Origin: Thermoplasmatales archaeon SW_10_69_26
GTDB lineage: Archaea > Thermoplasmatota > SW-10-69-26
Assembly (NCBI GenBank): GCA_003009755.1
Contig: PXUB01000025.1
Span: forward strand, 3,275-67,274
Reading direction: 5' to 3'
Length of the DNA stretch: 64,000 bases
The translations under genes and the position numbers were made by a program. Each line of letters begins with the position of its first letter. The first letter of the stretch is position 1. Below the pieces are notes generated by a model that was given only the letters and a program-made list of their open reading frames with translations, did no database searches and had not been told where the DNA came from. Shown piece after piece: positions 33,962 through 43,052 of the stretch.

Positions 33962-35161
33962 TCAGGCGCTTTCGCCGCCCATGCGGGCGTCCGCGTGGGC
34001 GAGCGCGACGTCCGCGGCCTGATACAGCAGGTGCAGATCGGGCTCGGGTCGGGCGCGGGCGTAGTCGGCGAACTCGCCGCGCAGCGCCAACAGGTCCGCG
34101 TGGCCCTCCTCGACCGTGTCGGGATCGGCCCCAGGGCCCAGGTGGCGAGCGATCGTGGCCCGCAGGCGTTCGATCTTGACGGCGGCGAAGCCAGGCGGCA
34201 TCGGGTTGTCGACGAGCGGCACGAGCTCGGGCTCGCCGCCCTCGCCGGGGGGGCCCTGGAAGCCGCCGGCTTCGAGGCCGCGGATCGCGTTCTCGAGGTG
34301 GGCGAGCTCGGGCGCCTCGTGGAGGGGCGTGGCCAGCGGTTCGCCGCAGGCGGCCACACCTTCGACGTCGAAGAGGCCGCGGCCGTCGCCGCGGAGGCCG
34401 TCGAGGAACCGGCGGGGCAGCGCCTCGCCCTCCTCGGTCTCCGCTTCGCGCCAGGCCAGCCGGGAGAGGTCGCCGACGGGCAGCTCGGCACGCAGAGCCA
34501 ACGCCAGACCGGAGGGCGGCGGCGGATCGGGATCGTCGCCGGTGGGCCACAGGTAGCCGGCACCGCCACCGGCGAGCACGGTCGTCTCGGCGCGGTGCGT
34601 GGTGCACTCCTCGCCGTCGACGAGCACGGCCCCGGAGACGCCCTCCTCGGCGTCGCCGATCAAGCGCACGGCGACGGTCGTCTGGTCCACGGCGGCGCCC
34701 TCGCGCTGCAAGCGATCGAGGATCGCCTCGCGCAGGTTGCGGGCCCAGGCTTCGTCGTTGGGGACGTCCAGCTCCTCGAGCCACCGTCGGACGCGACGGG
34801 CGCGGAAGCCGAACACCTGGGCCTCCTCGGGGGCGGGAACCTCGCTGCGCTTGATGAGCTCGCGGGCCTGGGGCACCGGGTCCTCGGGGATCGGCGGGAC
34901 GTCGGGGACGTCCTGGGCGCCCTGGACGAGCAGGCGGGTGCGGGCGCCCGATCGCACGGCGGCGAGGGCGGCGGCTGCGCCGGCCAGGTCGCCACCGACG
35001 ACGAGCACGGACCGGTCGCGGGGACGGTCGGCGTCGGTCTCCTCGTCCGAGCCGAGGGTCATGCCGCCCAGCATGCCGCCGGGGCCTTCGCGGTCGCCGA
35101 CGATGGCGCCGACGGCGTCCCCAGACGAGGACGGCGACGGGTGTTGATCGGGGTCCGCCAT
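33962..35161 (-). CDS. Degenerate NadB-like flavoprotein (L-aspartate oxidase relative)
   Basis: 399 residues, against about 530 for NadB. The dinucleotide site reads VLVVGGDLAGAAAALAA (usual GxGxAG altered), TTVLAGGGAGYLWPTGDDPD near 203-222 matches the second FAD motif, GLALALRAELPV and DVEGVAACGEP follow, and a helical C-terminal domain ends ARMGGESA where NadB goes on to RxESRG-H. The capping domain with the catalytic His/Arg is mostly missing and the HPT motif is absent. It sits directly after nadA (4 nt), so a role in making iminoaspartate for quinolinate is expected, but the enzyme may be impaired or work in another way. Confidence 0.65.
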   Translation of the reverse strand: MADPDQHPSPSSSGDAVGAIVGDREGPGGMLGGMTLGSDEETDADRPRDRSVLVVGGDLAGAAAALAAVRSGARTRLLVQGAQDVPDVPPIPEDPVPQARELIKRSEVPAPEEAQVFGFRARRVRRWLEELDVPNDEAWARNLREAILDRLQREGAAVDQTTVAVRLIGDAEEGVSGAVLVDGEECTTHRAETTVLAGGGAGYLWPTGDDPDPPPPSGLALALRAELPVGDLSRLAWREAETEEGEALPRRFLDGLRGDGRGLFDVEGVAACGEPLATPLHEAPELAHLENAIRGLEAGGFQGPPGEGGEPELVPLVDNPMPPGFAAVKIERLRATIARHLGPGADPDTVEEGHADLLALRGEFADYARARPEPDLHLLYQAADVALAHADARMGGESA

Positions 35162-35165
35162 GCGA

Positions 35166-36293
35166 TCACGACCCGATCTCGAGCATGCGGTCCAGCGCGA
35201 CGCGGGACCACTCGCGGTCCTCCTCGTCGACGCGGACGCGGTTGATCACGTTGCCCTTGACCAGCTCCTCGAGCACCCAGGTCACGTAGTTGGGGTCGAT
35301 CTGGCGCATCGCGTTGCAATCCAGGCAGGCGTCGCCGCACAGCTGGATGACCTGCTTGGCCTCGGGCGTGTTGCGCTGCAGGTGCTCGATGAGGTGCTTC
35401 TCGGTGCCGATCGCGATCGTGGTGTCATCCTCGGCCTCGTGCACGAAGTCGATGATCTGGCCCGTCGAACCGGCGAAGTCGGCGGCGTCGACGACCTCGC
35501 GCGGGCACTCGGGGTGGACGATGATCTCGCCGTCCGGGTAGCGCTCGCGCATGCCGGCCACGTGCTCGAGGGAGAACCGGTCGTGGACCTGGCACATGCC
35601 ATCCCACAGGATGAAGCGGGCGTCCTCGACGGCCTCCCGAGAGGTGCCGCCGAACTCGGGGTGCCAGGGGTTCCACTTCACCCAGTCCTCGTCGCGGAAG
35701 CCCAGGTCGTAGGCGGTGTTGTGGCCGAGGTGCTTGTCCGGCATGAACAGGATCTTGCGCCCGGAGTCCAGCGCCCACTCGAAGATCTCGTCGGCGCTCG
35801 AGCTCGTGCAGATCGCCCCGTCCATCCGGCCGGTGAAGGCCTTGAGGTCGGCGTAGCTGTTCATGTAGGTGACGGGCACGATCTCGTCGGGGTCGAGCAC
35901 CTGGGTGAGGTCGTCCCAGGCTTGGCGAACCTGCACCATCTCGGCCATGCCGGCCATCGGGCAGGCGGCCTCGCGGCTCGGGATGATGACGTTGCGTTCG
36001 CCGCCGGTAAGGATGTCGGCCGTCTCGGCCATGAACGTGACGCCGCAGAAGACGATGTTCTCGACCTCGGCGTCACGGGCGCGCTTGGAGAGGGAGAAGG
36101 AATCACCCGTGAAGTCCGCCAGCTCGTAGATCTCCTCGTGCTGGTAGTTGTGCCCCAAGATGAGGGTCGAGTCGCCCAGGCAATCGCGGGCGCGCTCGAT
36201 GCGCTCGGCTCGTTCCCCCGGGCCCAGATCCCGGTAGGGTTCCGGTAGCTGGGCGAAGTGGGCGTACCGGAACAGGTTCAGCGTCTCGGCCAT
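35166..36293 (-). CDS. nadA: Quinolinate synthase A
   Basis: 375 residues. Condenses iminoaspartate and dihydroxyacetone phosphate to quinolinate, the first NAD ring precursor, using a [4Fe-4S] cluster. Seen: LILGHNYQHEEI near 44-55, FCGVTFMAETADIL near 82-95, VTYMNSYADLKA near 140, CTSSSADEIFEWAL near 156, MPDKHLGHNTA near 178, VHPECPREV near 258, and CLDCNAMRQIDP near 329 bearing cluster Cys. Three candidate cluster Cys are present (C83, one in the ECP motif, one in the final CLDC). CCTTTAGG at 36317-36324 lies 27 nt before the ATG. Operon with the NadB-like gene. Confidence 0.95.
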   Translation of the reverse strand: MAETLNLFRYAHFAQLPEPYRDLGPGERAERIERARDCLGDSTLILGHNYQHEEIYELADFTGDSFSLSKRARDAEVENIVFCGVTFMAETADILTGGERNVIIPSREAACPMAGMAEMVQVRQAWDDLTQVLDPDEIVPVTYMNSYADLKAFTGRMDGAICTSSSADEIFEWALDSGRKILFMPDKHLGHNTAYDLGFRDEDWVKWNPWHPEFGGTSREAVEDARFILWDGMCQVHDRFSLEHVAGMRERYPDGEIIVHPECPREVVDAADFAGSTGQIIDFVHEAEDDTTIAIGTEKHLIEHLQRNTPEAKQVIQLCGDACLDCNAMRQIDPNYVTWVLEELVKGNVINRVRVDEEDREWSRVALDRMLEIGS

Positions 36294-36441
36294 CGCATGG
36301 AGCCAGCCGACCGGAGCCTAAAGGCGTTGGGTTGGGGGAAATCCGTTCGCCCTCGGGAGCGCTGGCTCGAAGAATTTTCGCTCGCGCCCGCGACCACGAA
36401 GCTGCCTGCGGTGGCAAGCTTCCCCACCCCGAGCGAACATC

Positions 36442-36480: not shown

Positions 36481-37083
36481 ATGACTGACTACACGCTGGA
36501 CGAGCTTCCCTACGACTACGACGCGCTGGAGCCCCACATCAGCGAGCAGGTGCTCAAGTGGCACCACGACCGACACCACCAGGGCTACGTTGACGGGTGG
36601 AACAGCGCCGAGGAGACGCTCGAGGAGAACCGCGAGTCCGGCGACTTCTCTTCGAGCGGGTCCGCCCTCCGCAACGTGACCCACAACGGGTGCGGTCACA
36701 TCCTGCACGCGCTGTTCTGGCACAACATGAGCCCCACCGGCGGCGACGAGCCCACCGGCGCGATCGCCGACCGCATCGAGGCGGACTTCGGCAGCTACGA
36801 GGCCTGGGAAGGTGAGTTCCGCGCCGCAGCCAGCGAGGCCTCCGGCTGGGCGCTCCTCGTCTACGACAGCTTCTCCAACCAGCTCCGCAACGTGGTCGTC
36901 GACAAGCACGACCAAGGCGCGCTCTGGGGCTCGCACCCGATCCTCGCCTTGGACGTGTGGGAGCACTCCTACTACCACGACTACGGCCCCGACCGCGGCG
37001 ACTTCGTCGACGCGTTCTTCAACGTCGTCGACTGGGAGGAGCCCCGCTCGCGGTACAAGCAGGCCGTCTCCCTGTTCGAGTAA
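36481..37083 (+). CDS. sod: Superoxide dismutase, Fe/Mn family
   Basis: 200 residues, full length. Metal ligands visible: His in LKWHHDRHHQGYVDG near 26-40, His in GCGHILHALFWHNMSP near 72-87, and the Asp and His in ALDVWEHSYYHDYG near 157-170. YDYDALEPHISEQV at the start is typical. Removes superoxide in the cytoplasm, so the organism meets oxygen. Transcribed alone, with its own TATA box and a hairpin/pyrimidine terminator. Confidence 0.96.
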   Translation: MTDYTLDELPYDYDALEPHISEQVLKWHHDRHHQGYVDGWNSAEETLEENRESGDFSSSGSALRNVTHNGCGHILHALFWHNMSPTGGDEPTGAIADRIEADFGSYEAWEGEFRAAASEASGWALLVYDSFSNQLRNVVVDKHDQGALWGSHPILALDVWEHSYYHDYGPDRGDFVDAFFNVVDWEEPRSRYKQAVSLFE

Positions 37084-37170: not shown

Positions 37171-38193
37171 TTAGCCGCGCTCGCCGGCGTTGAGCCCGGC
37201 GCGCTCGGCGACGTCGTACACCTCGGTGCGGGCATCGCGCAGCGAGGCGCGCTTGACGACGTAGCCCAGCTCGGTCAGCTTGCCGAGGCTCGATCGCACG
37301 GTGCGGGACGTGAGCCCGGACTGGCGAGCGATCTCGGAGGGCGTCATCGGGCCCTCGTACTCCAACAGCTTGTAGATGAACCGGGCCGAGGGCGGGGCAT
37401 CGGCCAGCTCGCTGCCGATCTCGCGTTTCAGCCGGACGCGGCCGAGCAGGTGGCCGTGCTCGCGCTCGGACAACCGCACCAGCGTCAGCCGGCGGCCGGT
37501 GCCCTTGATCGTGACGTCCTCGTCGATCGAGACCCGGCGGTGACCGTCGACGACGAGCTCGACGCCGGAGCCGCTCTCGGGGTTGGCCAGCGTGATCATG
37601 GAGGCGCTGGGCGACACGATCGGGGGATGGTCCTCCTCGCTGCAGACGGGCACGACGGTCAACACGTCGGCGGCGGACAGGACCGCGGGTCCGCCGGCAG
37701 ACAACGCGTAGGCGGTCGACCCGGTCGGGGTGCACACGATCGTGCCGTCGCCGCGGTCGTGCCACAGCAGCTCGCCGTCGACCTTGACGTCGACGTCGAG
37801 GAACGTGCCGTTCTGCTGGGGCAACACGGCGGCCTCGTTGAGCGCCAGCCAGCGCTCGTCGCCGACCTCGCACTCCATGCGCAGCGTCTGCGTGCGCCCC
37901 GATCGACCCTCGGCCAGGGCTCGGGCGACCTCCTCGGCCTCGCCGGCCTGGGCCTCGGCGAGCACGCCCAGGCCCTCGTTGGACAAGAGCAGGACCGGCG
38001 GCGGGTCGGGCAGCTCGGCCAACCGCGACAGGAAGAATCGGGTCTCGCCGACGAGCGTCAGCACGTCGGTCTCGGCGTCGACGGCATCGGTGACGGTCAG
38101 CTCGTGCTCGGCGAACGCCTCCCGCACCTGGCCGCCGTCCTCGCGGGCTCGCTCGTGGGCCTCGACCGCGACGCGCACGTTCCCCGGGCACAT
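37171..38193 (-). CDS. NAD-kinase-like domain fused to a C-terminal winged helix
   Basis: 340 residues from ATG at 38193. Residues about 1-255 follow the NAD kinase fold: LALNEAAVLP near 120, the RGDGTIVCTPTGSTAYALSA stretch near 146-165, GGP, and a beta-sandwich tail. But where NAD kinases have the catalytic GGDGT, this protein reads TLVGETRFFLSRL (about 46-58), so the key Asp is gone, and the following NxGxLGFL loop is NEGLGVLA. Residues about 270-335 are a winged helix: RFIYKLLEYEGPMTPSEIAR and QSGLTSRTVRSSLGKLTELG. I infer an NAD(P)-sensing transcription regulator rather than a working kinase. It is divergent from an alpha/beta hydrolase gene with 66 bp between, and close to nadA. Confidence 0.78.
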   Translation of the reverse strand: MCPGNVRVAVEAHERAREDGGQVREAFAEHELTVTDAVDAETDVLTLVGETRFFLSRLAELPDPPPVLLLSNEGLGVLAEAQAGEAEEVARALAEGRSGRTQTLRMECEVGDERWLALNEAAVLPQQNGTFLDVDVKVDGELLWHDRGDGTIVCTPTGSTAYALSAGGPAVLSAADVLTVVPVCSEEDHPPIVSPSASMITLANPESGSGVELVVDGHRRVSIDEDVTIKGTGRRLTLVRLSEREHGHLLGRVRLKREIGSELADAPPSARFIYKLLEYEGPMTPSEIARQSGLTSRTVRSSLGKLTELGYVVKRASLRDARTEVYDVAERAGLNAGERG

Positions 38194-38259
38194 CGTCGGC
38201 CCCCTTGAGGCCTGCGCCCGCGGGCGAACGGTCAAGCCGCCGAAGCCGCGTGAGCCCAC

Positions 38260-41961: not shown

Positions 41962-42675
41962 TCACTCCCGGAACAGCAGTTGCGTGTGCCCGACGCCGAT
42001 CACGTCCCCGTGCGACAGCCCTCGGCGCTCGCCCAGGCCCAGCCGGTCGCCGTTCAGGGAGACCCGAGCCCGCGCCGAGCGGAGATCCAGCAGCGTGTAG
42101 GTGTCGTCCTGGATCTCGATCTCGGCCGCCTGGTCGTCGACGAACCGGCTCTCGGGGAGGGGGACGTCGGCCTTGGGCTGGCTGCCGAGGATCCAGCCGC
42201 GGCGGCGGTCGGCCTCGAGCGTGCCCAGGCGGAACCGGCGGCCGACCTCGAGGCCGTGGACGACGACGAGGTGGGGTCCGGGCCCGGTCGGTTCCGGCTC
42301 CCACTCGATCGGCGAGGGATCGGGATCCTCGGGGTGGACGGACGGGTTGCCGTGGGCGGACAGCTCGCGCAAGGCCTCGGCCAGCGCCCACAGGGGTGCC
42401 TGGTCGATCCGGTAGGCGTTCTTCACGCGGCCGCCCTCGCGGACGCGCTGGGCGCGCACGATGCCGGCCTCCTGCAGCTGGTTGAGGTGGTAGCGCACCC
42501 CCTGACGGGTGAGACAGCGGGTGCGGTTCCCGTTGCGGCCGTCGTGGTCGACCGGCGTGAGCTCGATCTCGTCCAGCGTGCAGGCGTCCTGGAGCTGGGA
42601 CAGAAGGCTCAGACGGTTCGCGAACGCGAGCGCTTCGAGGCTCTCCAGGATCCAGTCGGTGGCTTCCTCCCCCAT
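41962..42675 (-). CDS. Winged-helix regulator with a C-terminal FHA domain
   Basis: 237 residues from ATG at 42675. Residues about 8-95 are an ArsR-like winged helix (ESLEALAFANRLSLLSQLQD, LTRQGVRYHLNQLQEAGIVR, VKNAYRIDQAPLWALAEAL). Residues about 135-237 form an FHA phosphothreonine-binding domain: GRRFRLGTLEADRRRGWILG (glycine-arginine core; IxLGS-type), VDDQAAEIEIQDDTYTLLDL, RARVSLNGDRL and GDVIGVGHTQLLF. A DNA-binding protein read by Ser/Thr kinases is inferred. No kinase gene is in the window. Confidence 0.8.
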   Translation of the reverse strand: MGEEATDWILESLEALAFANRLSLLSQLQDACTLDEIELTPVDHDGRNGNRTRCLTRQGVRYHLNQLQEAGIVRAQRVREGGRVKNAYRIDQAPLWALAEALRELSAHGNPSVHPEDPDPSPIEWEPEPTGPGPHLVVVHGLEVGRRFRLGTLEADRRRGWILGSQPKADVPLPESRFVDDQAAEIEIQDDTYTLLDLRSARARVSLNGDRLGLGERRGLSHGDVIGVGHTQLLFRE

Positions 42676-43052
42676 GGCGCAGGACGAGGCCCGTGACGAG
42701 GTTTGAACGCTCGCGCGAAGATCTTCGATCACCGATGGATGTCCTACCGCAGGAGGAACCGGGGGCTGCAGCCGGTCCCCAGCTCCGTCGGGATCAGAGG
42801 CCTGGTAGTGCAACGGTTGGCTTGACACGTGGACGTTTGCCGGTGACAAACGAGGGCCAGCGAACCCAACCGCCCCACCGGGCGCGGGCAAGGTCGGCTG
42901 AGTGGTGTCGGCTGGGCGCCGTGCAGGGGAACGAGCACCTGCTCGAAGGAAGCAACGATTTGGACTGAAACGCCCATTCTTGGCCGCTTGCGCGGCTCTT
43001 TCCCCAAATGTTCATCCCTCTCGAAGGCCCTGGTTGCGGTGGTTGCGTTCCG
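42676..43052. other. Intergenic region between two divergent regulators
   Basis: 377 bases with no convincing gene; it should hold the promoters of the FHA-HTH gene (minus) and the HTH-10 gene (plus). GAAGATCTTC at 42717-42726 is a 10-bp perfect palindrome about 45 nt from the FHA-HTH start and could be an operator. The plus-strand frame from 43008 may in part be the true N-terminus of the next gene. Confidence 0.4.

Follow-up and report, generated by a model that had tools for sequence, protein, structure and literature searches.

A winged-helix protein derived from NAD kinase as a probable regulator of NAD biosynthesis in archaea

An NAD-kinase-like protein with a degenerate catalytic loop

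The window, that is the whole stretch of 64,000 nt analysed here, carries at 37171..38193 (minus strand) a gene for a 340-aa protein that joins an NAD-kinase-like domain to a winged helix. Downstream of it and on the same strand lie nadA, encoding quinolinate synthase (35166..36293, minus strand; Pfam NadA, E 4.5e-94), and, starting 5 bp after nadA, a nadB-like gene (33962..35161, minus strand) for a flavoprotein with weak matches to L-aspartate oxidase; we propose the first as target and the second as co-target of the regulator. The nadB-like flavoprotein is very divergent and falls below all NCBIfam cut-offs; its gene is kept beside nadA in G001, the window's family mate. Between regulator and nadA, a gene for an Fe/Mn superoxide dismutase (36481..37083, plus strand) shares the nadA promoter region, probably incidentally. 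A membrane hydrolase gene diverges from the regulator on its other side. Elsewhere in the window, a 309-aa ORF (41962-42891) shows an unusual pairing of an HTH-like segment with a C-terminal FHA domain.

Residues 118-229 of the regulator matched the Pfam model NAD_kinase_C above its cut-off (E 6e-22), and the winged-helix models HTH_24 and MarR_2 matched above their cut-offs at residues 273-322, in a C-terminal domain (approximately residues 266-330; 37204..37398, minus strand) that is kept across relatives. NAD kinases were also its strong PDB sequence matches. An AF2 model built from 4 sequences reached modest confidence (mean pLDDT 64.7), and NAD kinases were among the matches listed when it was searched with Foldseek (E about 1e-17 to 1e-19). 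Against the NCBIfam NAD kinase equivalog the protein scored at best 88.8 bits, the cut-off being 326, and neither the window protein nor the tested fusion relatives reached the cut-off of any NCBIfam family. Searches with Pfam and NCBIfam detected no NMNAT+RNK, Nudix or niacin-binding sensor domain in the window protein.

Two motifs of the dinucleotide site are retained, NE (N119-E120; 37834..37839, minus strand) and TPTGSTAY (T155-Y162; 37708..37731, minus strand), and the DG motif is intact. In all 37 fusion relatives compared, the Asn of NE is invariant and followed by E or D, and the DG residues and the T, P, G, S and T of TPTGST are invariant as well, which implies that selection keeps the dinucleotide pocket. 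At the position of the catalytic GGDGT, sequence alignment placed the degenerate loop VGETR (context LVGETRFFL; 38038..38052, minus strand). Motifs and Pfam matches thus bear out the initial annotation as far as it described a protein of NAD-kinase fold in which NE and TPTGSTAY are intact, the loop reads VGETR and a winged helix follows at the C-terminus. Ungapped alignment put Thr of the window protein in the column of the catalytic Asp, with an acidic residue one position before it, and Ser or Asn of the two closest orthologs. Orthologs of 42-44% identity from two other genera read VGDSA and VGDNA at the loop position instead of GGDGT; since they share the same kind of change, we exclude that a sequencing error or a pseudogene accounts for the altered loop.

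Of the 36 fusions in which the loop can be read, 35 have a broken GGDGT, G393 being the single exception; all 52 single-domain kinases retain GGDG with T, C or S as the next residue. What is lost in most fusions is the flanking Gly and Thr, the loop Asp being kept in 30/36 relatives. Loss of the catalytic Asp, which the initial annotation had put forward, therefore applies to the window's class and a few other fusions but not to the majority, in which the retained Asp makes residual kinase activity possible. Judged from these motifs, proteins of the fusion family would no longer, or barely, function as kinases.

A second, intact NAD kinase was sought and found in the window genome: a separate gene encodes GGDGT within PVGGDGTILWTL at C3:37929, which rules out that the fusion is the only NAD kinase of this genome. 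An AcoX-like paralog (L003) is present there as well. Separate GGDGT kinases were read in 24 further fusion genomes, and in G390 and G560 the fusion is the only NAD-kinase family match. In the fusion of G393 (L090/L123/L181) GGDGT is intact, and a further canonical NAD kinase was not found in this genome; its nadA, located on another contig, carries at -52 a one-mismatch copy of the palindrome described below. The G393 protein may represent a bifunctional intermediate between kinase and regulator.

Distribution of the fusion and linkage to NAD genes

The distribution of the fusion was sampled in three phyla, in draft genomes that are nearly all MAGs. Full-length relatives occur in 3/7 genomes of the window's class; besides the window protein these are the orthologs in G003 and G006, and a sample of 389 genomes of the phylum gave no others above the threshold set for reporting. 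A peptide-pattern scan of the contigs of named genomes yielded three relatives only and added one MAG deposited as 'Asgard group' and one as 'Nanohaloarchaea', titles that are unreliable as taxonomy. The fusion was present in 52/227 genomes of the second archaeal phylum, that of the 'Asgard group' MAG, and in at least 4/34 genomes of the third, that of the 'Nanohaloarchaea' MAG, which additionally contained one broken copy. The fusion gene at G641:C11:13170-13715 (L122) is interrupted by two stops and apparently decayed or misassembled. A search of plasmids returned partial kinase-domain matches only. In G001, which is 75% complete and has nadA, neither the fusion nor the palindrome was found. 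When 37 fusions were placed in a tree together with 52 single-domain kinases, a single branch (support 100/98) separated the two sets; the fusion proteins form one clade, apart from all sampled single-domain kinases.

The vicinity of the regulator to nadA, noted in the initial annotation, holds in the window and is conserved: among 45 fusion-gene neighbourhoods that were read, 30 have nadA immediately upstream of and divergent from the fusion. As a control, nadA lies within ~1.5 kb of 23/32 fusion genes versus 3/76 single-domain kinase genes. A nadA gene within ~1.5 kb was also noted for three single-domain NAD kinases, L024, L026 and L029, which belong to other families of the phylum. Three related genomes of one clade carry instead a divergent nadC-AspDH-nadE-nadM operon (AspDH, aspartate dehydrogenase), and a gene for nicotinate phosphoribosyltransferase (NAPRT) is adjacent in five neighbourhoods, in three of them on the same strand directly downstream of the fusion. 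For four genomes with NAPRT beside the fusion (G390, G559, G560 and G568) no nadA match was found, which suggests that the fusion gene follows the NAD pathway available to the cell. Within the window's class, G003 shares the layout of the window except that the gene intervening between regulator and nadA encodes an unrelated membrane protein, and in G006 nadA is located 15 kb from the fusion on the same contig.

A palindrome at promoters of NAD genes

In the divergent intergenic regions a palindrome, GGCAA-N3-TTGCC, was visible by eye. An unbiased scan covering all 4-5-nt inverted repeats with spacers of 0-9 nt, with expectations derived from dinucleotide shuffles, ranked GCAA-N3-TTGC first (34/52 regions, 0.55 expected) and detected GGCAA-N3-TTGCC in 25 of the 52 scanned regions versus 0.0 expected, counts that do not represent independent events because the regions include close relatives. 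With at most one mismatch, the palindrome occurs upstream of 25/31 linked nadA genes and at 0/20 nadA genes from fusion-lacking genomes of the same phylum. The third phylum has it as well, ahead of a different operon. In about eleven promoters a weaker additional copy lies 29-30 bp from the first. Palindromes paired at this distance would suit binding by a dimer of dimers; cytosolic NAD kinase, for comparison, assembles as a tetramer from two dimers (PMC11233901).

Away from the fusion, exact palindromes are few and mostly located inside genes; the clear exceptions include those at a second nadA in G609 and at the NAPRT gene of G389, 8 kb from the fusion. Exact copies at other places in 19 fusion genomes were considered as signs of a wider regulon, which was rejected because most of them are intragenic and look like chance occurrences; the few remaining ones are intergenic or at gene edges. 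One such intergenic site is the second exact palindrome of L241 (G622:C184), located at the end of a contig.

In the window's class the palindrome was followed at nadA. G006 carries an exact copy, GGCAAATCTTGCC, at -133 (p 0.001 for the 200-bp region), and G003 a copy with 1 mismatch, GGAAAATCTTGCC, at -128 (p 0.0065). The candidate operator of the window, GGGGAAGCTTGCC on the nadA strand (36413..36425), lies at -132 from the nadA start and has 2 mismatches to GGCAA-N3-TTGCC; its p value within 200 bp (0.15) is not significant by itself, and this weak site is supported mainly by its position, which matches those of the G006 and G003 sites. Within 200 bp upstream of nadA, the three members of the class that lack the fusion showed no convincing palindrome. 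Long G+C-rich inverted repeats lie beside the exact palindrome at the nadA promoter of G006 (L270; G006:C30 near 31687).

Proposed function and relation to known systems

Altogether, the domain architecture, the decay of the loop next to retained pocket motifs, the single clade, the linkage to genes of NAD synthesis and a palindrome that co-occurs with the fusion, all of them computed directly, argue strongly for a kinase-derived sensor coupled to a DNA-binding domain and tied to NAD metabolism. To this extent the conclusion of the initial annotation stands; its further elements, NAD(P) binding and repression, we still infer. We favour, with a probability of roughly three in four, a transcription regulator of NAD biosynthesis made from an NAD kinase and a winged helix that would act as a dinucleotide-sensing repressor through the palindromes. 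An NAD kinase would have been duplicated and fused to a winged helix, and its kinase domain, with little or no phosphate transfer but with the NAD/NADP pocket motifs kept, would have become the sensor. At high levels of pyridine dinucleotide, the oligomer would occupy GGCAA-N3-TTGCC sites, which often come in pairs, beside the nadA promoter, and NAD synthesis would be shut down as in end-product repression. Comparative genomics alone designates the palindrome as a putative operator, to which the regulator is predicted to bind, with NAD(H) or NADP(H) as the presumable ligand and repression rather than activation as the presumed sign of control.

The sign of control could also be the opposite. 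The palindromes are located a short way upstream of likely TATA elements of both divergent genes and not on start sites, which makes an activator a real alternative: its apo form, prevailing at low NAD, would recruit TBP/TFB from a position upstream of BRE/TATA, and the dinucleotide would release it. Divergent linkage with the target gene, however, is typical of local repressors. The known bacterial NAD regulators have moreover been described for the most part as repressors, as is the case for NadR and NrtR (PMC6800001) and for NiaR (PMC7713382), and we therefore regard activation as unlikely. Similarly unlikely in our judgement is a ligand other than NAD(P), namely an NAD precursor or another nucleotide such as ATP, AMP or NaAD; the alteration of the phosphate-donor loop would be compatible with it, but NE/D, DG and TPTGSTAY of the pocket are kept in all 37 relatives.

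A functional though divergent NAD kinase with DNA binding as a second activity, i.e. a trigger enzyme like NadR, appears rather improbable. The loop Asp present in most relatives, the full GGDGT of G393 and the lack of another NAD-kinase family match in G390 and G560 are in its favour, but in the window's class T, S or N occupies the Asp column and the surrounding Gly and Thr are gone, and the window's genome and 24 others encode a separate GGDGT kinase. Regulation of the membrane hydrolase, which the initial annotation had proposed from the 66-bp promoter between the two divergent genes, is very improbable and this promoter can be discarded as the target, since no palindrome is found in the interval (38194-38259; best score -10.9) and the hydrolase neighbour is conserved in neither G003 nor G006; the target proposed here is nadA(B).

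The protein is thus probably an NAD(P)-responsive repressor of NAD biosynthesis, to go by motifs, linkage and palindrome. A broader reading, which we advance tentatively and at somewhat less than even odds, is that of an archaeal NAD(P) homeostat of ancient origin: a single regulator family built from NAD kinase, together with a single operator, would be conserved in three or more archaeal phyla, Asgard archaea among them, and G393 would be a surviving intermediate in which a single protein is both the NAD kinase of the cell and its NAD repressor. If the regulator acts as proposed, a concrete operator and an NAD regulon can be assigned to archaea, Asgard lineages included, and the family clearly exemplifies how an essential enzyme becomes a sensor while retaining its pocket motifs. 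Such fusions should then cease to be annotated as NAD kinases without qualification, a change that would also affect metabolic models.

A survey of open-access literature, subscription papers and preprints being outside its scope, revealed neither a dedicated archaeal regulator of NAD synthesis nor an NAD-kinase-winged-helix regulator, and the family very probably constitutes a hitherto undescribed switch, one that controls the synthesis of the NAD-type cofactors it senses. The fold and the NE/D, TPTGSTAY and DG motifs are common to the regulator and NAD kinase (PpnK/NADK), from which it differs by the degenerate GGDGT, the additional winged helix, its separate clade and the presence of a second, canonical kinase in the genome. 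AcoX-like NAD-kinase paralogs, whose function is unsettled, belong to the same superfamily, but L003 of the window genome has no winged helix and keeps the GGDGT loop (VGGDGTAVDIA). Three types of bacterial NAD regulators have been described, NadR, NiaR and NrtR (PMC6800001). NadR, the enterobacterial NAD repressor, likewise combines a DNA-binding domain with domains derived from NAD enzymes and controls NAD biosynthesis, but it is bacterial and its sensor stems from NMN adenylyltransferase/ribosylnicotinamide kinase rather than from NAD kinase. NiaR also controls nad genes, through a niacin-responsive domain and not an NAD-kinase fold. NrtR, the Nudix-related regulator, again joins an enzyme-derived sensor to a DNA-binding domain and can sit opposite a nadA/B/C operon (PMC6800001), its Nudix sensor being not homologous to the kinase domain of the archaeal regulator.
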